Assembly (NCBI GenBank): GCA_023935145.1
Contig: CM043704.1
Coordinates: forward strand, 96,497,873 to 96,561,872
Origin: Bretschneidera sinensis
Lineage: Eukaryota; Streptophyta; Magnoliopsida; Brassicales; Akaniaceae
Reading direction: 5' to 3'
DNA length: 64,000 nt
The notes beneath the pieces were generated by a model. It saw only the letters and a list, made by a program, of their open reading frames with translations, was not told the DNA's origin and ran no database searches. Positions 3,403 to 63,457 of this stretch are shown here, one piece after another. The translations under genes and the position numbers were made by a program. Positions within the stretch are counted from its first letter, which is position 1. Each line of letters starts with the position of its first letter.

Positions 3403-6400
3403 ATGTCAACAATGAAGTTTGATATTGAGAAGTTTGATGGAAACAGCAGTTTCAGTCTATGGCAAGTTCGTATGTTAGCCATTCTAACCCAAAATGGCTT
3501 GAAGAAAGCACTATTGGGGAAAGACAAGAAGCCTACCGGCATGAATGATGAAGATTGGGATGACCTGGATTACAAGGCTCTATCCGCAATCCAAATGAGT
3601 CTTTCAAATGATGTCTTACAGCAAGTTCTGTCAGAGAAAACTTCTGCAGCCTTATGGGCCAAGCTAGAAGAGTTGTACTTGACTAAATCCTTGGCCAACA
3701 GGTTGGTGTTGAAGCAACGCCTTTATGGTCTTCACATGACAGAAAGTTCCTCTCTCAAGTCCCATATCAGTGAGTTTATCTCAATTATTAATGATTTGAA
3801 AAATCTTGAAGTTGTTATTGGATCTGAAGATCAAGCTCTCTTCTTATTATGTTCATTACCACTCTCATACAAAAATTTTAGAGACACTATAATTTATGGT
3901 AGGGAAGAATTAAATTTTGATGATGTAATATCTTCCCTTATGAGTAAGAATAAATTAGATAATGAACTTTTGTCTAGTAAGTCTGATGATCAGGGCTCTA
4001 GTCTTGTTGCAAGAGGCAGATCCAATGACAGAGGCTTTGATGGTGGCAAGAATAGAAGAAGATCAAAGTTAAGAGGAAAGCACAAAAATTTGACTTGCAA
4101 TTATTGCAAGAAGAAGGGACACATCGTAGCGGAATGCTACAAGCTGCAGAACAAAAAGAAGAATGAATGGCAAAATGACAAGGGCAAGCAGAAGAAAGAA
4201 ACAGCTGATGCTGATGTAGCAGAAGAAAAAGGCGATGATGTTCTATTTGCAACCAACAAGTCCAGATCCAATGACGAGTGGATTCTTGATTCTGGATGTT
4301 CTTATCATATGTCCCCCAACAGAGATTGGTTCTCCACATATGATTCTGTTGAAGGTGGAGTTGTGCTAATGGGCAATAATGCCACTTGCAAAGCTGTTGG
4401 TGTAGGCACAGTAAAAATCAAGATGCATGATGGAGTTGTGAGGACATTGACTGATGATAGACATGTACCTGATTTGAAGAAAAATCTTATTTCTTTGGGC
4501 ATTCTGGATGCCAATGGCTGCAAAACTGTGATTAAGTCTGAGAACATGAAAATTTCCCGTGGTGCTCTTGTTCTCATGAAAGGAAAGAAGTCTGGCAGTC
4601 TATACACCTTATTGGGTTCAACAGTTACAGACTCTGCAGCAATTTCCTCATCCATGTCAGATTCAAACTCTACCAAGTTGTGGCATATGCGTCTATGGTA
4701 TATGAGTGAACAGGGATTAGCTGTACTTAGTAAAAGAGGTCTTCTGCCTGAAAGAAAGATTGGGAAGCTGGATTTTTGTGAGCATTGTGCCTTTGGAAAG
4801 CAGAAAAGAGTCAGCTTCAACACTGCAATTCACAGAACCAAAGGTACTCTTGATTACATTCATTCTGATCTATGGGGGCCTTCTCGTGAAATTTCCAAAA
4901 GAGGAGCCAGATACTTGCTAACGATTATTGATGATTTTTCTAGAAAGACTTTGGTCTATTTTCTCAGGCACAAGAATGAGGTATTTGGCATTTTCAAGCA
5001 ATGGAAGACCTTATTGGAAAAGCAGACCGGGAAGCTAGTCAAGAGACTCAGAACAGATAATGGTCTTAAGTTTTGTGATTCAGAGTTTAAACAATTCTGC
5101 AAAGATGAAGGCATTGTCAGACATCGGACGGTGAGAAAGACACCACAGCAGAATGGTGTCGCAGAGATGATGAATCGAACACTGTTAGAAAGAGCTCGAT
5201 GTATGCTTTCTAACGCAGGTCTTGGCAAGGAATTTTGGGCAGAAGCAGTCAATTTGGCATGTCATTTGGTGAATCGCTCTCCTCACAGATCAGTTGAACT
5301 TAAGACACCTGAAGAGGTATGGTCAGGTAGCCCTCCTGATTACTCTAACTTAAGAATATTTGGTTGCCCTGCATATGCTCATGTGAATGAAGGAAAATTG
5401 GAGCCTAGGGCGAAGAAATGTATTTTTCTTGGTTATGCTTCTGGTGTTAAGGGTTTTCGCTTATGGTGTCATGATACTCATAAGTTTATGATTAGCAGAG
5501 ATGTTACTTTTGATGAATCTGCTATGCTTCACCCTAGAAAAGAATTGCCTGTTCAGTGTGATACAGGAAAGAAGAATGCACAAGAGAAGGTGGAGCTTGA
5601 GGTTGATACCTCATCATCTGCAAATCCTAATCCTATTCAGCCAGGAAGTTCGTCTCCAGGTGGAGAGACACACCATGAAGCTGAGCATCACACTCTAGCT
5701 GGTGGAAGACAAAGGAGACAGATAAAACCACCCCAACGGTATGGTTTTGAAGATATATTGGCTTATGCATTAAATGTTGCAGAAACCATTGATGTCGCCG
5801 ATCCAACCTCATACTCTGAGGCCATCAGTTCATCTGATTCAGACAAATGGCTCGTTGCGATGCATGAAGAGATGGAATCTCTAAAGGAAAATGACACCTG
5901 GAAATTGGTCGAACCACCTAATGGTAAGAAAATTATCGGGTGTAAATGGATATTTAAGAAGAAGGAATGAGTCACTGGTGTTGAAGACACCAAGTATAAG
6001 GCACGATTAGTAGCGAAAGGCTACAACCAGGTGGAGGGAGTTGATTTTAATGATGTTTTCTCTCCAGTTGTTAGATATACTTCTATTCGTGTCTTACTTG
6101 CTCTAGTTGCAATGCATAATTTGGAGTTGGAGCAACTTGATGCGAAAACAGCCTTTCTTCATGGTGATCTTGATGAACAAATCTATCTACAGCAACCAGA
6201 AGGTTTTGAAGTTGAAGGCAAGGAAGATCATGTTTGTCTTCTAAAGAAATCCTTGTATGGACTCAAGCAGTCTCCACGCCTATGGTATCGAAGGTTTGAC
6301 TATTTTATGCTGAGTATTGGATTTTCTAGATGCAAGTATGATAGTTGTGTCTACTATCAAAGACTTGATGATGGTACTTTCATATATTTGTTGTTATATG

Positions 6401-9569: not shown

Positions 9570-10451
9570 TTAAATTAGGGGAATAGTATCGTGATGAATA
9601 GGGTCTGGTCCGCCAGGAGACTCTCTTTTGATCTGATATAATTGATCATCAGAAGGAATTTGAATAGGATTTGGTCCGCTAGTAACCTCTCTTTTGATCA
9701 CTTCTGTCGAATGTGTTGATAGTCTCTGATCGTGATGAATAGGGTCTGGTCCGCCAGGAGACACTCTTTTGATCTTATATAGTTGATCATCAGATGGAGG
9801 ATTAGGAATATGAATAGGATTCGGTCTGCTAGGAACCTCTCTTTTGATCACTTCTGTCGAATGTGTTGATAGTCTCTGATCGTGATGAATAGGGTCTGGT
9901 CCGCCAGGAGACACTCTTTTGATCTGATATAGTTGATCATCAGATGGAGGATTAGGAATTTGAATAGGATTCGATCCGCTAGGAACCTCTCTTTCGATCA
10001 CTTCTGTCGAATGTGTTGATAGTCTCTGATCGTGATGAATAGGGTCTGGTCCGCCAGGAGACTCTCTTTTGATATGATATAGTTGATCATCAGATGGAGG
10101 ATTAGGAATTTGAATAGGATTCGGTCCGCTAGGAACCTCTCTTTCGATCACTTCTGTCGAATGTGTTGATAGTCTCTTATCGTGATGAATAGGGTCTGGT
10201 CCGCCAGGAGACTCTCTTTTGATCTGATATAGTTGATCATCAGATAGAGGATTAAGATTTTGAATAGGATTTGGTCTTTTGGGAACCTCTTTTTTCATTA
10301 CTTCTATATTTTGCGAAAGTAAGGTTTCAAAATGTTGAATGTTGGACAAAATAGAACGATGGAAATGGTTTAGTTTTTTTGCAGTACCAGACCATAGGAC
10401 AAGCATTGAAAAAATGATCAAAAGTAGAGTAGACATTTTTGTGGTAGCCAT
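9570..10451 (-). CDS. Multi-CLE peptide-hormone precursor, ten motifs of two types (CLE-1)
   Basis: An intronless 293-codon frame. Residues 1 to about 24 form a signal peptide (MATTKMSTLLLIIFSMLVLW, then SGTA). After a short spacer come ten CLE dodecapeptides. Type A (REVPSGPNPIQI-like) is at 54-65, 104-115, 154-165, 204-215 and 254-265. Type B (RESPGGPDPIHH-like) is at 79-90, 129-140, 179-190, 229-240 and 276-287. The period is exactly 50 residues, with spacers PNPPSDDQLYQIK and DQRLSTHSTEVI. CLE peptides are secreted, cut from precursors, and sensed by CLV1/BAM/PXY-type receptor kinases in meristem, vascular and root signalling. Type B resembles the Arabidopsis CLE1-7 class (SPGGPDP); type A resembles the VPSGPNP class. 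K/R precedes most motifs, as expected for processing. The first type A motif (KEVPKRPNPIQN) is degenerate and others carry single changes (S-for-P, T-for-P). Multi-CLE precursors are known in a few plants; the strict two-type alternation is what stands out here. Which motifs are released is unknown. Confidence 0.9.
   Translation of the reverse strand: MATTKMSTLLLIIFSMLVLWSGTAKKLNHFHRSILSNIQHFETLLSQNIEVMKKEVPKRPNPIQNLNPLSDDQLYQIKRESPGGPDPIHHDKRLSTHSTEVIEREVPSGPNPIQIPNPPSDDQLYHIKRESPGGPDPIHHDQRLSTHSTEVIEREVPSGSNPIQIPNPPSDDQLYQIKRVSPGGPDPIHHDQRLSTHSTEVIKREVPSRPNPIHIPNPPSDDQLYKIKRVSPGGPDPIHHDQRLSTHSTEVIKREVTSGPNPIQIPSDDQLYQIKRESPGGPDPIHHDTIPLI
9580..10290 (-). repeat. 150-bp coding minisatellite of CLE-1
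   Basis: The CLE-1 motif region consists of in-frame 150-bp repeats; the segment around TCATCAGATGGAGG recurs at about 9,786, 9,936 and 10,086. The repeat nearest the stop codon is shortened by 9-12 nt in the first spacer. High similarity between repeats points to recent or continuing homogenisation. Confidence 0.9.
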
Positions 10452-12313: not shown

Positions 12314-14863
12314 TCAACCCTTCAATGAGTACTTCTTCCCTGTAAAAGGCTGGAACTTCGGTTCATCTTTCTTTTCGGGCTGCTGCTCTTGTTTTGTCTC
12401 TTTTCCAGCTTCCTGAGCATTTGAAGAAATAACCGATTTGTTAGCAGCTCATGGTCATAAATTTCTTTTCCAATTATAGGATTGGTGATTGTAGGCAATT
12501 TTATAATGAAGCATGGTAAAACCTCTTCTCTTCCTTCAGAGGACAGCTTACACTTGAACCAAACACAAGCTTTCCTGGAGCCTGGCGGGCAGTGTTTTGT
12601 GAACTAGACCCTGCAGAAGGCTGGCTACTCCCATTGGCAACAGCAGGTTGCTTTTCTTTGGACTCAGATGAAGAAACTGGTGGAGGCTAGTACTTCAACA
12701 GTTTCCCATCCAAGCGTTGCCTAGATCAAGTAAAAGGGCTGAATTTTGGTTCAGTCTGAACTGGAACCTCTTCGGCTGCAAGTACAAAAAGATGCATGTT
12801 GCCCATATTAGGAATAAAAATGAATTCCAAATCGGATCATGAATATGAGGAGTATTTACAAAGGAATAACTACTATGAATGTATTTGACCACATTTATTA
12901 AAATTGACTGAAGGTTTCTCCCCCCCCCCCCCCGCTCCCCCCCTTTTTTTTTTCTCACATGAAATAAAAGGGGAAAAAGTTTATACTTCTCACAAGATAT
13001 ACACAGCTTCCATGTAGCGGAACTAACTAAAGGACAAACTCGGACTACAAGGGTCCTATATAGTAGAAGTAAATCATCACTCTACATGTTTCATGTGTAC
13101 ATTATGACGCACAAAATTCTCCTTAGGCTACAAGGTTTAGATAAAAAATACAATGTGCGGAACAATTAGTGTCTGGAAAGAAAGAAGACAAACAAGAAAA
13201 GAAAATCAAGAGAACTATTAGAATCCTAATTCGGTAATTCCTAAACAATGGTATAATAAGAAATAAAAGGAAGACATTCCACAGAAACAGAAAATAACTC
13301 AATAGATTTTTTTTTTGGATAAATTGTGAATTTTATTTATCCTGAAATGAAGGAACACTAAGCATAAAAATAGAAAAAGTAACTGATAACAGAAACTGAA
13401 ATAATAGGAGATGATAAGGCGGAGTACATGGATATACACACCTTGAGCTGATGCCTTGCTAGAAGCAACAGGTGCAAAAGGCATTTCAGGTTCCTTGTAA
13501 TCCAGGGGAGGAGCAAAATCTACCTCACAGTCTGTCTCAATGATAGTAATTGCATTAGAAGGCTTTGTCTCTATAATATCTATGTAGTATTATGCTGTCC
13601 CCAGTCGTTAAGCACGAATAATTCCTTAGCGTTGTCTCCAAGCTGCATGAACAATAAAAAGAAATCATAACCTAGCTGTCTATCTTACAAATGCAATAAC
13701 TGACATGGGTATAATATGATATGTAGAACAATTTATTTCTATCGTATCAAACAAGAAAGAAGAAAACAGCAAAATAATGAAGGAAAACCCAATTGCACGT
13801 ATAAAAAGATGTGAATTCTGTTATTTTGCACTGTACCAGTGCAAACAGCACAGCAGTATCTGGGCAAACAAGGTTCTGGTGGGGACATGGCTTGTGAAGT
13901 AAATTGCACAAATTTCTCAATTGGAACCACCACACACAGGGAGCTTATATAGAAACTCATGGACTCTTCATCATAAAAGGTATGTAGGGGAAGAAACTGC
14001 TGGCCTCCCCCTAGATGGCATTAACCAAAATAACATGACACTAGAAAGAGAAGAAACACTATTATATTATACATCATGAGCACTGAATGACAGGAAAATG
14101 ATATGGAGTTCAATCCAGAAAAACCCTTCCCACCAAAGCATCAAACACCAGTCAATCACAACAAGTGCACATGCCTCTAATATATGAAACTGAACATTTG
14201 AATCATGAACTCACACAGCTTTTGGGTTAGAGATATCCAAAAAGTCCTTTGGGTGAGGTTGCAGTTTAACATAAGTTCCCTTCGGAAGAGTCGTGTTTCC
14301 CACTCTCACAATGTCTCCCTCTTGTAAGAGCAGGTTCTCCATCATCTATAAAGAAGCAATTCACACCAAAAGACAAGTTTAATCAATTAAATGACTTGAA
14401 CATTTCTTTGACAGTTAAAAACCTGTAACATTATCACACCAAAGATTATGCAGGAAACACAAGTCATTGCCTACCCAGTATGGCATATAGATCATGCCTT
14501 CTTCTGCAATAAACTCCAGAACCCCACAACGAGAGACCCTCTCGGCAGCAGCATTCCGAAACTCAAACAACATCAGATAATCAATATGCAGAGATGCTGC
14601 ACGATTTTTTTAAACATAAGCATTCCATATCTGCATTTATCAGTCATGAGGAATCCACAATAAATTAACCACTAGTTAAACAGATGTCATGATAAAGCAC
14701 GGAGCTAAAACGACTAACCGAGACGATCAAGGGCTGATGGTGGCATCATGACTGAAACATGAAAATTATATAAATATTTAAAAATATATTCAAGAAGAGA
14801 ACAACAAAAGACAACAACTATGAGTTTTGACATCTCACTTTTATCACCACTTTCAATTTGCGG
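12314..14863 (-). pseudogene. UFD1: UFD1 copy b, 5'-truncated and with stops
   Basis: Exons on the minus strand: 14839-14863 (micro-exon), 14719-14751, 14475-14596 (SLHIDYLMLFEF... MIYMPYW), 14215-14345 ([17 protein letters not shown]...), 13442-13642, 12523-12775 and 12314-12412 (...[16 protein letters not shown], stop). It lacks the ATG exon and the FFDGYGYHG exon. The exon at 13.5 kb has lost about 23 nt within the stretch for AYNNKKYYI, giving a frameshift. The exon at 12.6 kb has two in-frame stops (after KFSPFT and after LLKY). It is nearly identical to copy a in the shared part. Confidence 0.92.
12918..12943. repeat. Poly-C tract in a UFD1 intron
   Basis: A run of about 14 C, then GCT, then 7 C and a T run, lies in the intron between the last two large exons. 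The homologous runs are about 26 C at 26,998, 20 C at 35,413 and 16 C at 44,629. The length varies between copies and is prone to sequencing error. Confidence 0.8.
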
Positions 14864-15122
14864 CTGCAGGATAGTTATAAAAAATGGAATTAGAATCAGG
14901 AAAAAGGCGACGAGAAAAAAAATATAAAACTTCAATTTCAAATTTTGCAGGATCAGAGATCAGAATGCTTATGAACATCTGATCAAGCATTCCTTGCGTA
15001 AACAGTTAGAGACAGGCGCGACTGATATTAAAACCCGTACAAAATATTAGAATAATGGTACCCAACAAATCTCAACCATTTTCTTTGTCATTTGTGAACC
15101 ATATTAAACTGAACGTTACAAG

Positions 15123-15475
15123 AACGATTCCGTTAACCACCTTTTGTTGAGATGCCTTTGGACTAGTCAATTGTGGGAAATGGCCTATGCCTTTCTTGGT
15201 ATAAGTTGGTAGTGGAGAGCTCCATCAAGGGTGAAATTTGGGTTTGGTAGGGTTGTAGAGGTTCTAAAGAATTGAGGAAAGATTTTTGCTTATTCCCTCT
15301 TTCTATTTGCTGGATTGTATGGATCAAAAGAAATAGAAGGGGTTTTAAAAGTGTGGAAAAGCCTATAGCTTTATCCAAAGATAATGGCTTCACACCCGTA
15401 CTTTTTTGCTCAGTGGGCACTTCTTTTTTAACGAAAAAGAGCTTCTAGAGTTTATAGAGTTTTTGTCTTGTAAAT
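15123..15475 (+). mobile_element. LINE 3' fragment, second copy
   Basis: Near-identical copy of the zf-RVT-like LINE fragment at 565-988, at the same place relative to UFD1-b. Its tail is lost: after TCTTGTAAATGA the sequence jumps to the equivalent of about 1,356, removing roughly 450 bp. The LINE therefore predates the duplication that made copies a and b. Confidence 0.6.
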
Positions 15476-16048
15476 GAAGCACAATATTTTGCTTTTGTCT
15501 GCTTAAAAAATTATAAGCAGCTGAGGAAGTAAGAGTCCAAGTTTTATTCAGAAAAGAACACATGAAATATTACTTCTCTCAAGTTCTGGCATCCTACATC
15601 CGTAAATTAAAATATTACTGTTATATGATTCTAACTTTTTTTGCAACAATATTATTTGATTATAACTTGCTGTAAAGGGAAGCATATTTCATATTTTGCT
15701 GTAATCTGTTGTGCCGTGTGCATGTTTGCACTGATAGGTTTAAGGAGTGGCATGAACTACTTACCAGAAAAAATAATATGCTGTGCATTTAGAAGTTAAG
15801 AGTGAAATTAATACCATGTACAGAAATGCTAATCAAGGCCAAATCTGGACATCGTTTCTTCAAGGGAATCTGTACGAGTTCCATACATGAGATTTTGGGT
15901 CTAGACAGTTCTCTTCCTACTGAGAACATTAACTAATTTAGACCAAGAAAATACTTCAATCTTTGAATTTAATCTATGTTTGGCTTTCCTCAGACATTCT
16001 GCTTGATTTTCCTCTGGTTCCCTTTTTTTTTCTTCTCCAAATGTTCAG

Positions 16049-17440: not shown

Positions 17441-19921
17441 TCAACTGACTCCAATCCTAAGTAATTCAAGGCAATGATTGAACTTACTTAGAGGTAGAAA
17501 CTTGGTGCCTAAATCTGCAGGACTTTTCTCCGTGGTTTTCTTGTCAACATGAATGCTTCCTTCTGTACCATTTTCCAGAATGTAATGATACCGAACATCC
17601 ATATGCTCTGTCCCCTCATGGAACACCGGATACCTCCACAAGTGCCCCGCACTTTGGCTATCCAAAGATACCACCACCTGCTCTTTTAGGTCCTCCCACT
17701 CGTCCAACAACCCTTTGCACCCCATAGCCTCCTTTATGGCTTCCGTAGCCGCTATGCATTCTGCCCTGGTTGTTATGAGTGCTACCATTGGCTGCCACTG
17801 AGCCTCCATGTACCTCAGCAACCACTTCATCCCAAGACAACGCTCTTTTCCGGGATTACTCACACATTTGCTGAAAACATCCATTGCCCAAGAAACACTT
17901 GACCTGTTTCTCTTCCTTTCCCGGATGATTCTCCTCATCCCAAGGATCTTTTGTGCAAGGCTGAGATCCTTCCTCTCGAACTCCTCACTAAGTTGAGATG
18001 TAAACCTTTCCATCCTCTCCCTGCTGTTCCAAACCAACAGCCCATTAATGACATAGATAAGGATACTCACCATCTTCTCCACCTTGTGTCCAGGTGAGAA
18101 AGTTCTTGTGAAATCTATGTCTTCTTTCCTTGTGAACCCATTCGCCACCAGCCTAGCCTTGTTATGGACTTCATCTCTTGGAGGGCACCCTTCTTTGATC
18201 TTGTAAGTGCACTTACATTCCACAACTTTCTGATTTCCTGGAATTTTCACCAATTCCCAGAAGTTCTTCTTCCTCAAAGAATCCATTTCTTCCTCCATAG
18301 CTAGCTGCCACCTTGGCGAATCCTTACATGCCATGGCATCCATGTAAGTTTCTTGTTCACTCATCTCTCCTTCTGTCCAAGGAGTTGCTGCATCCGCAGC
18401 ATCCACAAACCCACATCTTGAAGGTGGTCCGACCAGCCTTCTTTCCTGGTCTCTTATGAGCTGAAAGTCCTTCTGACTTGCTGCAGCATCCTCTTCTTGT
18501 TCAGCCTCTTCTTGAGTTTCTTGAGCTTGGCAATTATCCAAGGGCTCTACCTGGTCCGAATCCTCTTGCCTCCTTTGCTTTACCTGAACAAAATCTCCCT
18601 TGATGCTATGCTCAACAATTTCTGAATTGGTTTGCTCACTAGCCCCTGCAGGGTTAGTTTTCTCCAAGTAGGGAAATAACAATTCATTAAAATTAACATT
18701 CCTACTTATTATGAGTTTTAATCCTTCTTTTTCTAAGGACCACAACCTATATCCCTTAGCTCCTTCCCCATATCCTAGAAACACACATTTTCTAGATCCT
18801 GGGCTAAGTCCATCATCATTTTGTTGTGCATACACAGCACACCCAAAAGTTCTAAGGTTGTCCAACTCAGGGGGTTTTCCACTCCACATCTCCATGGGAG
18901 TCTTTTGGAACACAATCCTAGAGGGTGATCTATTAATCAAATATGCAGCTGTAGCTACAGCTTCTCTCCAAAAATATTTTGGTAACCCGGATCCATCTAA
19001 CATGCACCTAACCTTTTCCATAAGGGTCTTATTCATCAACTCAGCAACTCCATTTTGCTGAGGAGTTTCCACAACCGTCCTATGTCTTAGAATGTCATTT
19101 AACCTACAGAATTGATCAAGTTCTTGGTTAAAAATTTCTAAGTCATTATCGGTTCTTATCCCCTTAACTACTCTACCCATTTGAGTCTCAACCAGCCCTT
19201 TCCACACCACTAATTTATTCAAGGCATCTAATTTATTCTTAACCAAATAAACCCACACTTTTCTTGAATAATCATCAATCAAAGACAGAAAGTAAATGTT
19301 ACCTCTCTGTGTTGGTGTCCTTGCTGGTCCCCAAAGGTCCGCATGAATGTAGTCAAGAATGCCCTTAGACTTGTGCACTCCGGTGTTGAAGCTGACCCGA
19401 TGTTGCTGCCTAAGAACACAGCTCTTATAGGAATCCATTTTTTCTACTTTGTCACCACCAAGTAGACCTTCCTTGCTAAGCACTTGCAGGCCCTTTTCGC
19501 TCATGTGTCCCAAGCGAGTGTGCCAAACGGCTGCCTTGTCCAGCTCAGCCATCAAGCTTGCTGCTTGATCATTGGTTTCTGTTTCTCCGATCATCTCATA
19601 GAGTCCATCGTTTCTTGCTGCCTTGATCACTACCAAAGATCCCTTGGCCACCTTGATCTTTCCTCCCTCTATCTTGCATGTATAGCCCATGGAATCAAAC
19701 TGCCCTAATGAGATCAAGTTCTTCTTCAAATCTGGAACATACCTCACATTTTCCAGCAGCCTTGTGACTCCATCAAACATCCTCAATTGGATGTCTCCAA
19801 TCCCTCTCACTTGGCAAGAATTGTCATTCCCCAATAAGACTCTTCCATCATTGATCTTCTTGAAATTCTTGAACCATTCTTTGTGAGGGCACATATGATG
19901 AGTGCACCCGGTATCCAAGAT
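17441..19921 (-). pseudogene. copia-2 pol, RT largely deleted
   Basis: The frame continues the gag frame after an in-frame TGA (19922-19924). It starts with the protease (LDTGCTHHMC) and GAG-pre-integrase (AVWHTRLGHM), then the integrase core (HADLWGP, RTDND, NGVAELMNKTL, so the D, D and E positions remain). The linker ends with KARLVANGF. Most of the RT is missing, including TAFLHG and YVDD: the frame jumps to ILIYVINGLLVW and then to a degenerate RNase H (TTRAECIAATEA, DSQSAGHL). It cannot encode a working RT. Confidence 0.9.
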
Positions 19922-21861: not shown

Positions 21862-22802
21862 TGCTGCTTTATGCTTGTGAAGATATATATGAAGTCCTTT
21901 TCATTTTCACTTAGCTGATGAATTAAAACAACAAACAGAGATGGCTTTGGTGTCCCTTTCTTTGTAGCAGTGAGTAGTAAAGAATACAACCAGGATCAAG
22001 CTAGCAGCAACAATCCAGCAAGGCAAGCATGGTTATCTTTTCTCATTGAGATCATGACCAAATACTGAATAAAGTAATTATAATTGAGTCTATCAATCAA
22101 ATCTTAATAATTTTTTAACAGCAATAGCAGATTTTATTAGTAATATGAGTTCGCCAAAGGCCAAATTACAATGCTTTTTTTATAAGTAAGGCCAAAATAA
22201 CAATGCTCAATCAATCTTAATATTTAAGACTGACTGCGGGCCTAAAAGATCTATGAACTAATAAAAGAATGCCTAAAGTAGTTGAAAAAATTCCTAGTCC
22301 ATTACAGAAAATAATGGTGCTTGCTTTGTTTACAAATTGCAATTGACTAGGGTTTCAACTTTCAATTCCACATACCATTCCATCAGAATGGAGGTTCCAC
22401 ACACCATAAAAGTCAGGTATCCCTCAAGATATCATAGAGGAAATAGAGAAAATAGCATAACTTCAATTTCAAATCAGGAAAATCAAAAAACTTTTTAACC
22501 TCAAAACTCAAAAGAGTGTTTCGGTAACCTGGAAGGGAGTATCGAATCTGGCTGGTGCCTGGTGGGTAGTTTAACCCGAAAATTGAAACCCAGCCGTGGA
22601 GAGAGTCAGAGATCTGCAGGAATGCTGGAAGGAAGAGAGAAAAAAAGAATCCGACCTCTAAGTATAGCAAGTGAGTCCTACCGTATTACCCTAATATACA
22701 AAATACTACAAAGTATAGTGATTTGTTATAAAAATAAAAATAAAGCCTAAAGCTTCTCAAATTTTAAAAACATCAGATCAGCTTGCAACCAAAGAGAAAG
22801 AA
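21862..22802 (-). other. Stranded piece of UFD1 intron 1 (no UFD1 gene attached)
   Basis: Sequence from 21,862 is homologous to 30,831-31,770, 39,221-40,154 and 50,118-51,046, which lie inside UFD1 intron 1. Here the rest of the gene is gone, replaced by copia-2. It contains the conserved block near 22,480-22,660 described for the other units and ends at the recurring junction with CLE 3' flank. Confidence 0.75.
22413..22670 (-). other. Conserved block in UFD1 intron 1, possible alternative 5' exon
   Basis: A block including CTGGCTGGTGCCTGGTGGGT and GAATGCTGGAAGGAAGAGAG is present in all four intron-1 copies (22.5, 31.5, 39.9 and 50.85 kb). It is more GC-rich than its surroundings and its minus strand is pyrimidine-rich like a plant 5' leader. 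Short frames on both strands survive in three copies but not in the fourth, and match nothing I know. It could be an alternative untranslated first exon of UFD1. Confidence 0.3.
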
Positions 22803-22808
22803 TTAATG
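22801..22808. other. Tandem-duplication junction 1
   Basis: To the left, sequence follows UFD1 intron 1 (as at 51,046); to the right it follows CLE 3' flank (as at 9,146). The two parents share only about 3-4 bp at the join (TTAATGAT region), consistent with end joining at a short match. Confidence 0.8.
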
Positions 22809-23247
22809 ATATTTTAACTCACTATATTTTAAAAAATTCATCATTAATATATATAAAAGGACAAAAAAAAATCATCGTTTTCAACCTTGGATATGGTCAG
22901 CCAAAAATATTGTACATATGATAATCACAAACAAGAACCAAAAATAAAAGTTTGAAATCCCAGTTAGAGTACCAAGGTGGCATTAAAAATGATGAGATTC
23001 AATCAGACACGTCAAGTTTAATTGAAAGCACTAATTGTATATAACTAGAAAAATCACTAGTCCCATGAACAAGAAAGTGCTATGAGAAAATCACAAATGA
23101 AGCTTTTATTTTAATTAGAATTGAAGGTACATACAAGCATTTTACTTCAGAAGATTATGATAATATAAGATTATATATGTTCCCTTATTTTTTGAAATAC
23201 CACTTATCTCTTTCGACCAGCATTAATAACGTGGAATTCATTAACTC

Positions 23248-24274
23248 TTAATTTAGAGGAATGGTATCGTGAACAGGGTTTGGCCTAAAAGGGACAAGTC
23301 TTTTGATCACTTCTGTCGAACGTGTTGATAATCTTTGATATTGTTGATCATCAGATGGAGGAATAGGATTATGAATAGGATTTGGCCCGCTAGGAACTTC
23401 GCTTTTGATCACTTCTGCCAAACGTGTTGATAGTCTCTGAAATTGTTGATCATCATACGGAGGATTAGGATTATGAATAGGATTTGGCCCGCTAAGAACT
23501 TCTCTTTTGATCACTTCTGCCAAACGTGTTGATAGTCTCTGATATTGTTGATCATCATATGGAGGATTAGGATAAAGAATAGGATTTGGTTCGTCAAGAA
23601 TCTCTCTTTTGATCACTTTTGTAGAACGTGTTGATAATATATGATATTGTTGATCATCAAATGGAGGATTAGGATTATGAATAGGATTTGGTCCGCTAGG
23701 AACCTCTCTTTTGATCACTTCTGTCGAATGTGTTGATAGTCTCTGATATTGTTGATCATCAGATGGAGGATTAGGATAATGAATAGGATTTGGTCCGTTA
23801 GGAACCTCTCTTTTGATCACTTCTGTAGAACGTGTTGATAATCTATGATATTGTTGATCATCAAATGGAGGATTAGGATTATGAATAGGATTTGGTCCGC
23901 TAGGAACCTCTCTTTTTATCACTTCTGTCGAACGTGTTGATAGTATTTGATGTGTTGATTATCAAATGGAGGATTAGGATGATGAATAGGATTTGGTCCG
24001 CCAGGAACCTCTTTTTTTATCGCTTCTGTCGAACGTGTTATAGTCTCTGATATTGTTGATCATTAGATGGAGGATTAGGATTATGAATAGGATTTGGACC
24101 GTTAGGAACCTCTCTTTTGATCACTTCTATATTATGCGAAAGTAAAGTTTCAAAATGTTGAATGTTGGACAAAATAGAACGATGGAAATGGTTTAGTTTT
24201 TCTGCAGTACCAGAACATAGGACAAGCATTGAAAAAATGATCAAAAGTAGAGTTGACATTTTTGTGGTAGCCAT
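23248..24274 (-). pseudogene. Multi-CLE precursor CLE-2, truncated by two 1-nt deletions
   Basis: The start matches CLE-1 (MATTKMSTLLLIIFSMLVLC) with the same signal peptide. Motif 1 (REVPNGPNPIHN) is intact, but a missing G near 24,039 (GTGTTATAG against GTGTTGATAG in sister repeats) stops the frame after QYQRL, leaving 78 codons. A second missing base lies near 23,951. Beyond it a 224-codon open stretch holds seven more type A motifs (e.g. REVPSGPNPIHN, RLVPFRPNPVHD), nine in all, at 34-residue spacing. Type B motifs are absent. Either the gene now makes a single-CLE precursor or it is dead; base-calling error must be excluded. Confidence 0.85.
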
Positions 24275-24744
24275 ATGGTAGAAAACTATGACATGAGGAA
24301 GATTGAATGAAACTTGTCCTATTTATTGGAGAAATTCTTTTATCTAAATAAAGAAGATGGATTTAATGTGAAAACTGCATTGAGCAATAGTTGATTATCT
24401 TATCTATGGTAATCTAAAATATTCAAGAAACTACTTAACCAGGATACTCTCAAATAGTAGTTTTGTGTTTATATTGGAAACCGATGGTATCTAAAATGAT
24501 TACAAGTGATCACATTCAATTTTAGGCACAATAATAAATTTTTAATTGCACAAGAGATTTTTTTATCGAATATAATCCAATTTTAGGTACTATAATAAAT
24601 TTTTAATTACACAAGAATTTTTTTTATTACAGTAGATTCCATCCAATTTTAGGCACTATAATAAATTTTTAATTCAATAGGAAATTTTACTGCTAAAAAA
24701 CAGAAGTCAAAAGTAGTTTTAAAAAAGCTGATTTAAGTCAAAAA

Positions 24745-24790
24745 TCAAAAATAGATTTGGTCCATTAGGAACAAATCTTTTCACGTTTTT
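24745..24790 (-). pseudogene. Orphan CLE-like motif upstream of CLE-2
   Basis: Same relic as upstream of CLE-1 (minus strand KRFVPNGPNLF), about 480 bp before the CLE-2 ATG. Three copies of the promoter repeat (AATTTTAGGCAC...AATAAATTTTTAATT) lie between it and the gene. Confidence 0.5.
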
Positions 24791-26385
24791 TTTTAAATCA
24801 AATAAAAATAAAATTTATTTTATTTTATTTCAAATGAATTGAATTAAAAATAAATTACAATATAATTAAGATACCTCTCTTTCTAGGATTTTTAATATAT
24901 ATCGCTTTTAATGTCCTGATTTATTTTGATTAATTTGATTACTTGTTTCTATTTATATGTTTCATTCGACATGATTACTTTCATTATTTCAATTTATCTA
25001 ATTAATTTCCTTTTAAAGATTTTTTCAACATGATTTCAAATATATAATGTAGTTAAAAAATCAACACCGCACTATCTTGATGTTTAGTGAAATTACATGT
25101 GAATCCATGTTCTTCATCCAACCAACACTGTACTACCACGAGGTTTAATGAAATAGGATGTTAGTTCATCTACTTTATCCGATAAACACTATACTATTTT
25201 GAGGTTAAGTGAAATTATGTGTTAATTCATCTACTTGTTCTATAGAAGTTGTAGTTTGATTTTTTATACAATAATATATTGGCATGTGCTAAGTCTGACC
25301 TATTAAGTTTGGCATATATATTGTTAAAGTCTTTAGGTGGATAAAGATAGTTTAGGAATAAAAAAAACACTTAATTAAATAATCGAACTTAATGGTCAAA
25401 AGGATTGGAAGGTTAACAGTAGGGCAATAGCTACAACGTTGGTTGGATAAAAAAAGGAGTAGAATTTAATTTCACTAAACCTAGCTTAGGATAGTACAAT
25501 GCTTATTTGATATATCATATGGACTATAGACATAACAATAGACCCATTAAAAAATGGATATCTTTTATCCTTATGCGTTAACTTATGACCGATAGTACGC
25601 ACCCAATCCTACTTGCCAGTTACCCACCTCTACGTACATATGCCTCTTTATTCAAATTTCTTCAATTGAAATGAGAGGATATAAAGCAAAATCTCTCCAA
25701 ACTCTACACAATTTAATTCTCTCTTATTTTAAAGTTTGAGAGATAGGAAAATAAACAAGTAAATGAGATATTTTGAAAAGATAATCTCCTCATCATCCCT
25801 CGATCCAACATACCTGTAACTTGTAAGAGCCCTGGAGTTGTAAGCAGTTTTTACAACCATTTTTCAAGCTGAATTATTTCAGCTAGCAACAAACATGCAC
25901 TATGTGCCTGATTTAAGCCTCATTTGTTTAGTTTTAGTCAATTATCCTCCTTGCCTGAAAATGTTTTAAAATTCTTCATCTAAAAGTAATTTTATGCTCT
26001 AAACCTTAATCTTCCCTCTTTCCAAACATCACTAAGAGCATAGAAAAGAATCTTCGGGCTGCAACTACGAGTCAAATTTTTGGCAGACATGCATATGTTT
26101 ATCACTGGAGCAGAGATAATATATAACGATGGGATACAAATGCATAAATTCTAGAGTACAAGTCCAGTGAACATGACTTAAGAGTCCAACTAAACATTTT
26201 TTCTCTTCCCTTTCTTCTCCTCTGAATAAAGATTTGGATGCTTCAGTCAAACAAGTTGCTTAAACCTTTTTTTCTCTTTGTGAGGACAAGCAATGTATAA
26301 TCCTGTAGTTTCCTTTGATCCACAGAGGACAAGCAAAGCGGAAAAGTCTAGTTAAATGCATTGATTGCTAGTATATAATCTTTAA
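24791..26385. other. Intergenic between CLE-2 and UFD1-c
   Basis: AT-rich. It contains AGTGAAAT-type short dispersed repeats (TTGAGGTTAAGTGAAAT near 25,200) also seen in the other units. No gene was recognised. Confidence 0.6.
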
Positions 26386-27029: not shown

Positions 27030-30000
27030 TTTCTCACATGAAATAAAAGGGGAAAAAGTGTATACTTCTCACAAGATATATACAGCTTCCATATAGCAGA
27101 ACTAACTAAAGGACAAACTCGGACTACAAGGGCCCTATATAGTAGAAGTAAATCATCACTCTACATGTTTCATGTGTACAATATAATGCACAAAATCCTC
27201 CTCAGGCTACAAGTTTCGGATAAAAAATACGTGTGCAACAATTAGTGTCTGCAAAGAAAAAAGACAAACAAGAAAAGTAAATCTAGAGAACTACTACAAT
27301 CCTAATTCGGTAATTCCTAAACAATGGTATAATATGAAATAAAAAGGAAGACACTCCACAGAAACAAAAAATAACTCAATAGATTTTTTTTCTTGGATAC
27401 GTTATGAATTTTATTTATCCTGAAATGAAAGAACACTAAGCAGAAAAATAAAAAAAGTAACTGATAACAGAAACTGAAATAATAGGAGATGATAAGGCTG
27501 AGTACATGGATATACACACCTTGAGCTGATGCCTTGCTAGAAGCAACAGGTGCAAAAGGCTTTTCAGGTTCCTTGTAATCCAGGGGAGGAGCAAAATCTA
27601 CCTCAGTCTGTCTCAATGATAGTAATTGCATTAGAAGGCTTTGTCTCCATAATATTTATGTAGTATTTCTTATAGTTATAAGCCACCATTATGCTGTCCC
27701 CAGTCGTTAAGCACGAATAATTCCTTTGTGTTGTCTCCAAGCTGCATGAACAATAAAAAGAAATCATAAGCTAGCTGTCTGTCTTACAAATGCAATAACT
27801 GGCATGGGTATAATATGATATGTAGAACAATTTATTTCTATCATATAAAACAAGAAAGAAGAAAACCGCAAAATAATGAAGGAAAAGCCAATTGCACGTA
27901 TAGAAAGATGTGAATTCTGTTATTTAGCACTGTACCAGTGCAAACAAGCACGGCAGTATCTGGGCAAACAAGGATCTGGTGGGGACATGGCTTCTGGCGT
28001 AAATTGCACAAATTTCTCAATTGGAACCACCACACACAGGGAGCTTATATAGAAACTCATACGGACTCTTTCATCATAAAAGGTATGTAGGGGAAGATAC
28101 TGATGGGCCTCCCCCTAGATGGCATTAACCAAAATAACATGACACTAGAAAGAGAAGAAACACTATTATATTATACATCATGAGCACTAAATGAGAGGAA
28201 AATGATATGGAGTTCAATCCAGAAAAACCCTTCCCACCAAAGCATCAAACACCAGTCAATCACAACATGTGCGCATGCCTCTAATATATGAAACTGAACA
28301 TTTGAATCATGAACTCACACAGTGTTTGGGTTAGAGATGTCCAACCTTTGTGTGAGGTTGCAGTTTAACGTAAGTTCCCTTCGGAAGAGTCGTTTTTCTC
28401 ACTCTCACAATGTCTCCCTCTTGTAAGCGCAGGTTCTCCATCATCTATAAAGAAGCAATTCACATCAAAAGACAAAAGTTTAATCAATTAAATGACTTGA
28501 ACATTTCCTTGACAGTTAAAAACCTGTAACATTATCACACCAAAGAATATGCAGGAAATACAAGTCATTGCCTACCCAGTATCGCATATAGATCATGCCT
28601 TCTTCTGCAATAAACTCCAGAACACCACAATAAGAGACCCTCTCGGCAGCAGCATTCCGAAGCTCATACAAAATCGGATAATCAATATGTAGAGATGCTG
28701 CACGATTTTTTTAAACATAAGCATTCCATATCTGAATTTATCAGTCATGAGGAATCCACAATAAATTAACCACTAGTTAAATAGATGTCATGATAAAGCA
28801 CGGAGCTAAAACGACTAACCGAGACAATCAAGGGCTGATGGTGGCATCATGACTGAAACATGAAAAATTATATAAATATTTAAAAATATATTCAAGAAGA
28901 AAACAACAAAAGACTACAACTATGAGTTTTGACATCCTATTTTTATCACCACTTTCAATTTGCGGCTGCAGGATAGTTATAAAAAATGGAATTAGAATCA
29001 GGAAAAAGGCGACGATGAAAAAAATATAAAACTTCAATTTCAAATTTTGCAGGATTAGAGATCAGAATGCTTATGAACATCTGATCAAGCATGCGTTGCG
29101 TAAACAATTTGAGACAGGCGCGAGTAATATTAAAACCCGTACAAAATATTAGAATAATGGTACCCAACAAATCTCAACCATTTTCTTTGTCATTTGTGAA
29201 CCATATTAAACTGAACGTTACAAGGACATTGGCATTCCAACCTTTTCAATAAAAGATGCTGGGTAACATCGGTAGCTCTGCTCAAATGATGTCCCATGAT
29301 ACCCATATCCATAAAAGAAACTGCAATATCACAGCCAAAAGATAAATTATAAGTAGTCACGACAACAATATGATGAAAATCATCATGAGGACAAGATAAA
29401 TACTAATTAACTAATAAAAAGAACAACAAAAATAAATCTGTCTCCTTATGAGAATGAAAAAATGTACAACTATATCGTGGATGACGCATAAAAGATGCAA
29501 AAGAAATTATTCCAACAATTCTCAACACTACAGGTTTTGTCATGTACCCAAAAAAGAAAGTCAATCAAAGGTTTAAGAGCAAAGTGACCATTAACGATAA
29601 AAGCTAAAACTGATTAGATCATGGACAAGTCACACCAATATATTTTTTCTCTCTTTTATTTCTTCTCCTTAGGGTCTAAAGGCCTAGGCATTATAACCTA
29701 TTTCAGTTTCATACATAACTTGTTACTGTAAAAGGCATTTATTACCAAATAGTAACGATAAATTTCGTCATCAGCAGTACTACCATATGTTACATGGCAA
29801 TGCAAATAACATGTTCATTAGTTTAGCATGTGATTGAAAGAGCATGTCGCTGTATATGATCTGTATAACCCAATGTCAAAAACAGTCAACCAATCGTATG
29901 AACTCCTTTATCAAATGGACGAGGAAATTCTTCCTCGTGTGGAACCTCTAGAAAGTAGAAACATGTTTATGAAGCGTGTTAGATGATGATGAGAATAAGA

Positions 30001-30192: not shown

Positions 30193-31770
30193 CTGTAGGA
30201 AGAAGAAAATCACATGGTTTAAATTATAGCATAGAACTCAAGTAGTCAAGTCATCCAAAGTAAGAGTACTAATATCATCTCATCCGAAGGCGAAACCAGG
30301 AATTTCCTCTAGCTAGGACCGAAATAATTCTTATATTTTCATTCAAAATTGCAAGTCATTTTAGAACTTGTTAAATATAAAATACACAATATAAGCCTTC
30401 ATCACCCATGGAGGGGGTTACAACAAGTTAATCAATGATATTTATGCCTTCATCACCCACGGAGATGGGTGCAAAATGAATTATGGAGTCCCTATACTAC
30501 TCTTTAAATTCTCCAGTCTACTTCTTGAAAAATGAATCTATAGTTTTTGACTTAATGATTTAGCCTATATATTATAAACCAAAGAAGAAAAAAAATTAAA
30601 AGTTGCCTACCATTGACCCTTAGCCAATTTATCAAGACAGAAAAACAAATTCACATATGAACAAATTTTATGCGTGCCATTCAATTTCTAATGTTGTTGA
30701 TACTAATCCTTTCTTACTAGACTTGAACACCAAATCCTTGAAATGGGTCGTCTCCGTTCTCAACGTAAGGAAAATTTAATCTCAATATTTGGTCAATTAC
30801 TTTGTTATTGAATCAGTTTAGTATATAATATTGCTGCTTTATGCTTGTGAAGATATATATGAAGTCCTTTTCATTTTCACTTAGCTGATGAATTAAAACA
30901 ACAAACAGAGATGGCTTTGGTGTCCCTTTCTTTGTAGCAGTGAGTAGTAAAGAATACAACCAGGATCAAGCTAGCAGCAACAATCCAGCAAGGCAAGCAT
31001 GGTTATCTTTTTCTCGTTGAGATCATGACCAAATACTGAATAAAGTAATTATAATTGAGTCTATCAATCAAATCTTAATAATTTTTTAACAGCAATAGCA
31101 GATTTTATTAGTAATATGAGTCCGCCAAAGGCCAAATTACAATGCTTTTTTTATAAGTAAGGCCAAAATAACAATGCTCAATCAATCTTAATATTTAAGA
31201 CTGACTGCGGGCCTAAAAGATCTATGAACTAATAAAAGAATGCCTAAAGTAGTTGAAAAAATTCCTAGTCCATTACAGAAAATAATGGTGCTTGCTTTGT
31301 TTACAAATTGCAATTGACTAGGGTTTCAACATTCAATTCCACATACCATTCCATCAGAATGGAGGTTCCACACACCATAAAAGTCAGGTATCCCTCAAGA
31401 TATCATAGAGGAAATAGAGAAAATAGCATAACTTCAATTTCAAATCAGGAAAATCAAAAAACTTTTTAACCTCAAAACTCAAAAGAGTGTTTCGGTAACC
31501 TGGAAGGGAGTATCGAATCTGGCTGGTGCCTGGTGGGTAGTTTAACCCGAAAATTGAAACCCAGCCGTAGAGAGAGTCAGAGATCTGCAGGAATGCTGGA
31601 AGGAAGAGAGAAAAAAAGAATCCGTCCTCTAAGTATATCAAGTGAGTCCTACCGTATTACCCTAATATACAAAATACTACAAAGTATAGTGATTTGTTAT
31701 AAAAATAAAAATAAAGCCTAAAGCTTCTCAAATTTAAAAAACATCAGATCAGCTTGCAACCAAAGAGAAA
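30193..31770 (-). other. UFD1-c intron 1, truncated, lacking exon 1 and promoter
   Basis: Homologous to UFD1-e intron 1 up to about 51,046, where it switches to the CLE 3' flank. It includes two short repeats of TTCATCACCCA(T/C)GGAG near 30,400 and 30,450 and the conserved block at 31,384-31,641. No exon 1 or promoter like 51,477-51,690 is present. Confidence 0.75.
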
Positions 31771-31778
31771 GAATTAAT
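31771..31778. other. Tandem-duplication junction 2
   Basis: The join is the same to the base as at 22,801 (AAAGAATTAATGATATTT), so it was copied by expansion rather than made independently. Confidence 0.8.
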
Positions 31779-32217
31779 GATATTTTAACTCAATATATTT
31801 TAAAAAATTCATCATTAATATATATAAAAGGACAAAAAAATTCATCGTTTTCAACCTTGGATATGGTCAGCCAAAAATATTGTACATATGATAATCACAA
31901 ACAAGAACCAAAAATAAAAGTTTTAAATCCCAGTTAGAGCACCAAGGTGGCATTAAAGATGATGAGATTCAATCAGACACGTCAAGTTTAATTGAAAGCA
32001 CTAATTGTATATAACTAGAAAAATCACTAGTCCCATGAACAAGAAAGCGCTATGAGAAAATCACAAAGGAAGCTTTTATTTTAATTAGAATTGAAGGTAC
32101 ATACAAGCATTTTACTTCAGAAGATTATGATAATACAAGATTATATATGTTCCCTTATTTTTTGAAATACCACTTATCTCTTTCGACCAGCATTAATAAC
32201 GTGGAATTCATTAACTC

Positions 32218-33245
32218 TTAATTTAGAGGAATAGTATTGTGAACAGGGTTTGGCCTAAAAGGGACAAGTCTTTTGATCACTTCTGTCGAACGTGTTGATA
32301 ATCTTTGATATTGTTGATCATCAGATGGAGGAATAGGATTATGAATAGGATTTGGCCCGCTAGGAACTTCTCTTTTGATCACTTCTGCCAAACGTGTTGA
32401 TAGTCTCTGATATTGTTGATCATCATACGGAGGATTAGGATTATGAATAGGATTTGGCCCGCTAGGAACTTCTCTTTTGATCACTTCTGCCAAACATGTT
32501 GATAGTCTCTGATATTGTTGATCATCATATGGAGGATTAGGATAAAGAATAGGATTTGGTTCGTCAGGAATCTCTCTTTTGATCCTTTTGTAGAACGTGT
32601 TGATAATATATGATATTGTTGATCATCAGATGGAGGATTAGGATTATGAATAGGATTTGGTCCGCTAGGAACCTCTCTTTTGATCACTTCTGTCGAACGT
32701 GTTGATAGTCTCTGATATTGTTGATCATCAGATGGAGGATTAGGATAATGAATAGGATTTGGTCCGTTAGGAACCTCTCTTTTGATCACTTCTGTAGAAC
32801 GTGTTGATAATCTATGATATTGTTGATCATCAAATGGAGGATTAGGATTATGAATAGGATTTGGTCCGCTAGGAACCTCTCTTTTTATAACTTCTGTCGA
32901 ACCTGTTGATAGTATTTGATGTTGTTGATTATCAAATGGAGGATTAGGATGATGAATAGGATTTGGTCCGCCAGGAACCTCTTTTTTTATCACTTCTGTC
33001 GAACGTGTTAATAGTCTCTAATATTGTTGATCATTAGATGAAGGATTAGGATTATGAATAGGATTTGGACCGTTAGGAACCTCTCTTTTGATCACTTCTA
33101 TATTATGCGAAAGTAAGGTTTCAAAATGTTGAATGTTGGACAAAATAGAACGATGGAAATGGTTTAGTTTTTCTGCAGTACCAGAACATAGGACAAGCAT
33201 TGAAAAAATGATCAAAAGTAGAGTTGACATTTTTGTGGTAGCCAT
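32218..33245 (-). pseudogene. Multi-CLE precursor CLE-3, nonsense plus frameshift
   Basis: Same signal peptide and first motif (REVPNGPNPIHN) as CLE-2. CAG has become TAG in SNDQQYQRL (33,018-33,020), leaving a 75-codon single-CLE frame. The original frame then stays open to about 32,585, where one A is missing (GATCCTTTT against GATCACTTTT), and resumes in another frame to the stop at 32,218. Nine type A motifs can be counted across the frames, including PGGPNPIHH and RLVPFRPNPVHN. It is nearly identical to CLE-2 elsewhere. Confidence 0.85.
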
Positions 33246-33714
33246 ATGGTAGAAAACTATGACATGAGGAAGATTGAATGAAACTTGTCTTATTTATTGG
33301 AGAAATTCTTTTATCTAAATGAAGAAGATGGATTTAATGTGAAAACTGCATTGAGCAATAGTTGATTATCTTATCTATGGTAATCTAAAATATTCAAGAA
33401 ACTACTTAACCAGGATACTCTCAAATAGTAGTTTTGTGTTTATATTGGAAACCGATGGTATCTAAAATGATTACAAGTGATCACATTCAATTTTAGGCAC
33501 AATAATAAATTTTTAATTGCACAAGAGATTTTTTTATCGAATATAATCCAATTTTAGGTACTATAATAAATTTTTAATTGCACAAGAATTTTTTTTATTA
33601 CAGTAGATTCCATCCAATTTTAGGCACTATAATAAATTTTTAATTCAATAGGAAATTTTACTGCTAAAAAACAGAAGTCAAAAGTAGTTTTAAAAAAGCT
33701 GATTTAAGTCAAAA

Positions 33715-33760
33715 ATCAAAAATAGATTTGGTCCATTAGGAACAAATCTTTTTATGTTTT
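33715..33760 (-). pseudogene. Orphan CLE-like motif upstream of CLE-3
   Basis: Same relic block (TTTGGTCCATTAGGAACAAA) about 480 bp upstream of the CLE-3 start, with three promoter-repeat copies between. Confidence 0.5.
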
Positions 33761-35039
33761 TTTTAAATCAAATAAAAATAAAATTTATTTTATTTTATTT
33801 CAAATGAATTGAATTAAAAATAAATTACAATATAATTAAGATACCTCTCTTTCTAGGATTTTTAATATATATCGCTTTTAATGTCCTGATTTATTTTGAT
33901 TAATTTGGTTACTTGTTTCTATTTATATGTTTCATTCGACATGATTACTTTCATTATTTCAATTTATCTAATTAATTTCCTTTTAAAGATTTTTTCAACA
34001 TGATTTCAAATATATAATGTAGTTAAAAAATCAACACCGCACTATCTTGATGTTTAGTGAAATTACATGTGAATCCATGTTCTTCATCCAACCAACACTG
34101 TACTACCACAAGGTTTAATGAAATAGGATGTTAGTTCATCTACTTTATCCGATAAACACTATACTATTTTGAGATTAAGTGAAATTATGTGTTAATTCAT
34201 CTACTTATTCTATAGAAGTTGTAGTTTGATTTTTTATACAATAATATATTGGCATGTGCTAAGTCTGACCTATTAAGTTTGGCATATATATTGTTAAAGT
34301 CTTTAGGTGGATAAAGATAGTTTAGGAATAAAAAAAAACACTTAATTAAATAATCGAACTTAATGGTCAAAAGGATTGGAAGGTTAACAGTAGGGCAATA
34401 GCTACAACGTTGGTTGGATAAAAAAAGGAGTAGAATTTAATTTCACTAAACCTAGCTTAGGATAGTACAATGCTTATTTGATATATCATATGGACTATAG
34501 ACATAACAATAGACCCATTAAAAAATGGATATCTTTTATCCTTATGCGTTAACTTATGACCGATAGTACGCACCCAAATCCTACTTGTCAGTTACCCACC
34601 TATACGTACATATGCCTCTTTATTCAAATTTCTTCAATTGAAATGAGAGGATATAAAGCAAAATCTCTTCAAACTCTACACAATTTAATTCTCTCTTATT
34701 TTAAAGTTTGAGAGATAGGAAAATAAACGAGTAAATGAGATATTTTGAAAAGATAATCTCCTCATCATCCCTCGATCCAACATACCTGTAACTTGTAAGA
34801 GCCCTGGAGTTGTAAGCAGCTTTTACAACCATTTTTCAAGCTGAATTATTTCAGCTAGCAACAAACATGCACTATGTGCCTGATTTAAGCCTCATTTGTT
34901 TAGTTTTAGTCAATTATCCTCCTTGCCTGAAAACGTTTTAAAATTCTTCATCTAAAAGTAATTTTATGCTCTAAACCTTAATCTTCTCTCTTTCAAAACA
35001 TCACTAAGAGCATAGAAAAGAATCTTCGGGCCTGGCGTG
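33761..35039. other. Intergenic between CLE-3 and UFD1-d
   Basis: Homologous to 24,791-26,060. At about 35,032 the sequence jumps from CTTCGGG into the middle of UFD1 exon 9, so the 3' end of UFD1-d is deleted. Confidence 0.6.
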
Positions 35040-56793: not shown

Positions 56794-56865
56794 GTTGGGG
56801 AGTTGTAATACTCGTAATCATTAAGTAAGGGTAAAGAAGTAATTTAATAAATATAACATGAAATT

Positions 56866-56871
<6 letters not shown>

Positions 56872-56923
<52 letters not shown>
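56872..56923. repeat. TA/CA dinucleotide repeat in LTR B
   Basis: An alternating (TA)n run passes into (CA)n. The second unit (about 61,351-61,398) has a slightly shorter TA tract, one of the few differences between the two units. Confidence 0.9.
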
Positions 56924-57954: not shown

Positions 57955-58110
57955 TTGAAAAACCATGACAATTGGTATATACTGGAAATAAAGAAAAACC
58001 GTGACAGTCGGTATATGCTGGAAATAAATGAAAATCGTGATAGCCAGTATATGCTGGAAATAAATGAATACTATGACAGCCGGTATATGTTGGAAATGAA
58101 AGAATCTGGG
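57955..58110 (+). repeat. 36-bp minisatellite in LTR B, four copies
   Basis: Four imperfect 36-bp units, each containing GACAG(T/C)(C/A)GGTATATGCTGGAAATAAA-like sequence. They keep open frames on both strands (plus strand RDSRYMLEINEN-type 12-residue repeats). The same array is at about 62,429-62,585. The open frame is probably a by-product of the repeat length being a multiple of three. Confidence 0.8.
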
Positions 58111-61273: not shown

Positions 61274-61283
61274 GTTGGGGAGT

Positions 61284-61345
61284 TGTAATACTCGTAATCA
61301 TTAAGTAAGGGTAAAGAAGTAATTTAATAAATATAACATGAAATT

Positions 61346-61399
<54 letters not shown>

Positions 61400-63371: not shown

Positions 63372-63457
63372 ATTTTGGTATTAGAGCATTACGTTTTATG
63401 ATTTTGTAGACTGCATAAAAAGTAAGAAAGTGAAAGATTAAAACAAATTATATTCTG

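Follow-up and report, generated by a model that had tools for sequence, protein, structure and literature searches.

A multi-CLE precursor gene with a paired repeat of two CLE motif types in Bretschneidera sinensis

The window, a stretch of 64,000 nucleotides from Bretschneidera sinensis, contained a multi-CLE gene (CLE-1) and three sister arrays (CLE-2, CLE-3 and CLE-4), all on the minus strand (Table 1). The CLE-1 frame ran from ATG to TAA with no internal stop codon. Its leader reached a highest 12-residue Kyte-Doolittle mean of 2.95, from residue 8, and is likely a signal peptide, an assignment made from hydropathy only. The translation contained no cysteine and the last motif left six residues to the C-terminus, in agreement with a CLE prepropeptide, which is cysteine-poor and carries a motif near its C-terminal end. 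A Pfam match of CLE-1 to DUF3085 (30 bits, cut-off 25) was dismissed as a chance match on repeats; no single stretch passed the cut-off by itself, and the reported residues 65-88 lay mostly between motifs.

Behind the leader, ten CLE-like 12-mers followed each other in strict A-B order, five times over. A and B are the motif labels of the preliminary description of this DNA and should not be confused with the functional classes called A-type and B-type in the CLE literature. The A motifs started at residues 54, 104, 154, 204 and 254, and the B motifs at residues 79, 129, 179, 229 and 276. The A period was thus exactly 50 residues, and the order and period first described were borne out, save that the final B arrived 3 residues early. 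With ten motifs in one frame and a 50-residue pair period, CLE-1 was a multi-CLE precursor in the sense of at least two regularly spaced motifs in a single frame. When the residues of CLE-1 were shuffled 20,000 times, the maximum was two relaxed CLE cores and one strict core, compared with ten and six observed, showing that the motif array is not a product of chance.

Table 1. Positions of CLE-1, its leader, repeat and motifs, and the sister arrays in the window.
Feature	Position (nt)	Strand	Remarks
CLE-1, multi-CLE prepropeptide ORF, read as single exon	9570-10451	-	293 aa
Hydrophobic N-terminal leader, residues 1-24, likely signal peptide	10380-10451	-	From hydropathy; putative cleavage near Gly-Thr-Ala
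150-nt tandem repeat, unit equal to one A-B pair	9654-10305	-	Tandem Repeats Finder: 4.3 copies, 94% matches
A1 KEVPKRPNPIQN	10257-10292	-	Misses G6, H11
B1 RESPGGPDPIHH	10182-10217	-	Misses none
A2 REVPSGPNPIQI	10107-10142	-	Misses H11, N/H12
B2 RESPGGPDPIHH	10032-10067	-	Misses none
A3 REVPSGSNPIQI	9957-9992	-	Misses P7, H11, N/H12
B3 RVSPGGPDPIHH	9882-9917	-	Misses none
A4 REVPSRPNPIHI	9807-9842	-	Misses G6, N/H12
B4 RVSPGGPDPIHH	9732-9767	-	Misses none
A5 REVTSGPNPIQI	9657-9692	-	Misses P4, H11, N/H12
B5 RESPGGPDPIHH, C-terminal position, then DTIPLI-stop	9591-9626	-	Misses none
CLE-2 sister array, 9 motifs	23248-24274	-	In-frame stop at codon 79; readable part is leader plus one motif
CLE-3 sister array, 9 motifs	32218-33245	-	Stop at codon 76, frameshift further on
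CLE-4 sister array, 10 motifs	40600-41719	-	Stop at codon 76, frameshifts further on

A sequence search with CLE-1 returned four proteins (28-43% identity, E 5.6e-9 to 1.8e-5) and no near-identical annotated protein. A profile was built from these four matches and two sister-array ORFs, and the 8000 candidates with the most shared words were scored with it. This search gave 60 proteins at E ≤0.1, the four first matches included (12 of the 60 lay above 1e-3); two nematode proteins were set aside, leaving 58 multi-CLE-like proteins. CLE-1 was therefore homologous to plant multi-CLE proteins. PF27922 was given in the precomputed listing for many of the homologues, and a Pfam scan did not report it for P0004. 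The 58 proteins provided 203 motifs, chosen by a custom score with a loose threshold, by which degenerate motifs may be missed and false ones counted. The search of plant proteomes for the A-B alternation, proposed in the preliminary description, came back empty: the five-fold order was found by this motif finder in none of the 58 multi-CLE-like proteins. V-core GPN and S/T-core GPD motifs were mixed in three of them (Rhamnella rubrinervis P0006, Vitis rotundifolia P0011, P0040), and Abrus precatorius P0002 had one S-core GPN and two S-core GPD motifs. The closest to alternation was P0040 (v V S V pattern). Its four motifs, IVVPTGPDPIHH, RIVPGGPNSDHN, RLSPSGPDSSHH and RIVPGGPNSDHN, had mixed cores in partial alternation. 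Mixed motifs within one precursor are thus not unique to CLE-1, and no regular pairing turned up among the homologues.

Seven positions (P4, G6, P7, N/D8, P9, H11 and N/H12) were scored in each motif. All seven were kept in five of five B motifs and in none of the five A motifs (Fisher p 0.008; here and below, counts are small and p values treat related repeats as independent), each A motif missing two or three. Together with the homology, the intact B motifs bear out the description of CLE-1 as a CLE-type precursor. The A substitutions were G6R in A1 and A4, P7S in A3, P4T in A5, Q11 in A1, A2, A3 and A5, and I12 in A2-A5. The Gln-Ile or Gln-Asn end first ascribed to type A held for A1, A2, A3 and A5 and failed for A4, which ended in His-Ile; the sequence given for the type, REVPSGPNPIQI, was literally present in A2 only (one of five), the others reading KEVPKRPNPIQN, REVPSGSNPIQI, REVPSRPNPIHI and REVTSGPNPIQI. 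The A motifs were also poorer than their relatives, with all checked positions kept in 16 of 28 sister-array motifs versus none of five (p 0.044), and P4, G6 and P7 all present in 151 of the 203 motifs from homologues versus one of five (p 0.019). Ile at position 12 was found in none of the 203 homologue motifs. H11 was present in 84 of them and N or H at position 12 in 75; since these residues are not universal in multi-CLE proteins, a QI end does not by itself make an A motif dead.

Released A peptides, with their G6R changes and QI ends, could be imagined to compete with B or with endogenous CLE peptides. CLE peptides altered at G6 have reportedly been tried as antagonists, and the frame encodes as many A as B motifs. 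We nevertheless hold such a modulating role to be very improbable. According to excerpts of a study of TDIF and its receptor TDR, G6A and G6T bound 14- and 20-fold weaker; H1 and N12 served as anchors, with weaker binding of H1A and N12A, and Ala at P4, P7 or S11 had a minor effect (PMC5383425). The A motifs lacked the H1 and N12 anchors of the TDIF group (Group 4): all five began with R or K, and four had I at position 12. By the group definitions in the excerpted switchgrass paper (PMC8496505), they also deviated from Group 3 (N8 and N12), with N8 in five and N12 in one of five; type A seems to fit neither group well. In the same paper, D8 and H12 mark Group 1, with AtCLE1-7 and CLV3 among its members, and both residues were present in all five B motifs. 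The claim that the two cores belong to different CLE subclasses was therefore upheld, B having D8 and H12 and A having N8.

These data bear directly on the proposal of the preliminary description that one transcript releases two CLE ligand classes in a fixed 1:1 ratio for different receptors. The strict pairing and the open 293-codon frame are consistent with it, as are the mixed cores of three of the 58 homologues and, in excerpts of PMC5319780, the synergy of CLE6 with CLE41 (an A-type with a B-type peptide of the functional scheme). However, conserved positions were missed by every A motif and by no B motif, G6R was present in two A motifs and N12 absent from four, and the alternation was kept by none of the 58 homologues. 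Moreover, P4T, G6R and P7S within units 2-5 were each private to a single unit. Two active ligands are thus disfavoured, and we regard a dual-ligand precursor as unlikely. A cassette of two signals, in which a CLE1-7-type agonist (B) would be made in equal amount with a non-canonical A peptide that acts on another receptor or damps B, is judged more doubtful still.

All three sister arrays had the same leader as CLE-1, a motif spacing of mostly 102 nt and a stop just past the first motif. None of their 9, 9 and 10 motifs contained the SPGGPDP core, and single B-like residues were present in some (KEVPGGPNPIHH, REVPSGPDPIHN). The A-type motif ahead of the stop, behind the leader, was REVPNGPNPIHN in CLE-2 and CLE-3 and REDPNGPNPIHN in CLE-4 (starts 24274, 33245 and 41719, minus strand). 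CLE-2 to CLE-4 may survive as ordinary single-CLE genes ahead of dead arrays. The arrays lay in repeated blocks, of which 21862-26059 and 30832-35031 were 98.7% identical, and the surroundings of CLE-1 matched the other blocks at about 85-94%. A UFD1-like sequence was repeated along with the array blocks. A fragment of the UFD1 N-terminal subdomain (PF24842, E 3e-24) was found at 44960-45352 (minus strand), and look-alike ORFs in other blocks at 27317-27631 and 35724-36038 (minus strand), the latter without a Pfam match. Copia-type ORFs were present at 3403-5970 and 17441-19918; among the best 120 of 827 matches of a copia ORF, the top identity was 61%, Xanthoceras sorbifolium included, and Gossypium anomalum reached 55%. 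Two further segments of about 3.7 kb each, 55775-59523 and 60255-64000, were 99.6% identical, being either recently duplicated or doubled in the assembly. Positions 1-919 and 14559-15477, which flank the CLE-1 block on both sides, were 99.5% identical.

The 150-nt unit reported by Tandem Repeats Finder corresponds to one A-B pair, so that the alternation is best read as the multiplication of one A-B block and the ten motifs do not stem from ten independent events. When the third CLE-1 unit was aligned with two consecutive sister units (204 nt), two 27-nt gaps appeared in all four comparisons, the first ahead of B and the second at the 3' end of this motif; the comparison with CLE-4 added small indels. 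The sister motifs nearest to the B DNA were KEVPGGPNPIHH, the second motif of both CLE-2 and CLE-3, and REVPSGPDPIHN, the third of CLE-4, each with 6 differences in 36 nt; the common sister motif REVPSGPNPIHN had 7. Over all 25 non-terminal sister motifs the distance ranged from 6 to 11 of 36 nt, compared with 10-13 for the A motifs of CLE-1 itself and 16 for the sisters' last motif. Because the B DNA was nearest to internal A-type sister repeats, B very likely belongs to the repeat family of A, with both types as paralogous repeats within a single array; KEVPGGPNPIHH and REVPSGPDPIHN look like forms intermediate between them.

A GAT codon directly followed each of the five B motifs. The tail was CACGATACT in CLE-1, CACGATACC in CLE-2 and CACAATAC in CLE-3 and CLE-4, and the 3' end read CAC-GAT-ACT in CLE-1 and CAC-GAT or CAC-AAT, then ACC or ACT, in the sisters. 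The GAT after each B and the shared tail suggest that assembly of the A-B pair took place at the gene's 3' end, with multiplication following. Derivation of B from the C-terminal motif of the sisters was rejected for the motif body, with 16 of 36 nt differing versus 6-7 for the nearest internal repeats, and was retained for the shared tail alone. Arrival of B as a foreign motif, in one 48-nt insertion, was disfavoured, the 5' flank of B (ATCAAA-AGAG) being the array's own. We propose that an A-type repeat was altered at V3S, S5G, N8D and N12H to a CLE1-7-like motif, although the direction from A to B is unrooted in this comparison without an outgroup. The altered repeat would then have shed two 27-nt stretches and reached the C-terminal tail position, and would afterwards have been amplified as a pair jointly with the neighbouring A.

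Across the five units, 10 of 36 nucleotide sites varied in A versus 1 of 36 in B (p 0.006). Within units 2-5 alone, the counts were 5 and 1, which was not significant (p 0.20), indicating that much of the contrast between A and B is due to the edge unit 1 and to changes shared before amplification. Synonymous differences were also absent from the B motifs, and their uniformity could therefore come from recent homogenisation and not from selection. Positive selection on B is not claimed, as the counts are too small. Neutral decay of one motif type, named beforehand as an outcome that would speak against two ligands, fits the A motifs, with homogenisation as the alternative.

The leader of CLE-1 was 94.8-96.7% identical to those of the sister arrays, compared with 92.9-94.9% for the 100 nt upstream and 83.3-86.7% for the 60 nt downstream, and its differences from the CLE-2 leader were three replacement and three silent changes. 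As conservation of the leader barely exceeded that of the upstream 100 nt, there was no strong sign of purifying selection on it. For this reason a non-functional array stays under consideration. Like CLE-2 to CLE-4, CLE-1 would then be a tandem duplicate undergoing decay in a cluster rich in retroelements, its frame open by luck or through recent array turnover. The broken state of three out of three sister arrays, the balance of replacement and silent changes in the leader, the first search, with its four distant matches, and the copia-type ORFs close by are consistent with decay. However, the 293 codons were open although about 9% divergence separated the leader-side DNA from that of the broken sisters, and five canonical B motifs were retained. 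We consider a dead array rather unlikely.

CLE-1 probably encodes a single hormone rather than two. On the sequence comparisons made here, we lean towards a precursor whose payload would be B, five CLE1-7-like peptides per molecule, with the A motifs as relics. The precursor would be secreted, cut by proteases and modified at prolines, and its most likely useful product would be the B dodecapeptide R[E/V]SPGGPDPIHH, in five copies per precursor; the A motifs would most likely serve as spacers. The B dodecapeptide is presumably perceived by a CLV1/BAM-type receptor, a proposal that we take from general knowledge of CLE peptides. CLE-1 holds a canonical and a degraded motif type in the same precursor and at the same copy number. 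This internal contrast offers a natural way to ask if all motifs of an array are released, and how the peptide class can change inside an array while sister genes retain the old class.

Multi-CLE genes are well documented in the excerpted literature (Oelkers 2008, PMC2254619; Hastwell 2015/2017, PMC4526924, PMC5570945; switchgrass, PMC8496505; wheat, PMC6747155, PMC12677920), and Goad 2017, as cited in the switchgrass paper, counted 59 multi-motif proteins in 27 species, with motifs identical or not. The processing of their products is described as little known in the available parts of PMC4526924, PMC8496505 and a wheat report. No published description of alternating CLE classes in one precursor was found in the titles, abstract beginnings and main-text parts covered, and an earlier mention is possible. 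Like CLE-1, the legume genes MtCLE14, LjCLE32/33 and GmCLE37a/b carry between three and nine putative CLE peptides in a single ORF (excerpts of PMC5570945 and PMC4526924). Their repeats are given there as 24-35 residues, with varying lengths in LjCLE33, whereas in CLE-1 two motif types form a paired unit of 50 residues. A figure legend for LjCLE33 mentions a second CLE domain; a paired unit is thus possible in MtCLE14 and LjCLE33, which are set apart from CLE-1 by description only. LjCLE46, LjCLE47 and LjCLE33 are reported to be clustered within about 10 kb, comparable to the cluster around CLE-1.

With six and four motifs, rice CLE75 and CLE76 resemble CLE-1 in their even spacing and single exon (Oelkers 2008, PMC2254619, in part). 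However, the two-class pair is absent from the printed rows, in which the CLE75 motifs are all TPTGP-like (one with N8, the others with D8) and those of CLE76 all VPxGPDPITS. The same source in its available part gives EST support for wheat CLE30 and CLE31 and proposes signal amplification by multi-CLE genes. Switchgrass PvTDIFL3 carries multiple non-identical CLE motifs, as does CLE-1, but these are two or three in number and all of TDIF type; its expression altered growth and vasculature in Arabidopsis, and amplified activity was not seen (excerpts of PMC8496505). Two peptide classes in one precursor are also known from AtCLE18, which combines CLE with CLEL and not repeated CLE classes (Meng 2012, as cited in the excerpted PMC4526924). 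Multidomain CLE proteins of cyst nematodes, according to parts of PMC8618561, have several CLE domains, similar or different, as in CLE-1, and differ in their nematode origin. With a regular pairing not seen among 58 homologues, CLE-1 is a gene of a known kind, a multi-CLE precursor, built on an unusual paired repeat.
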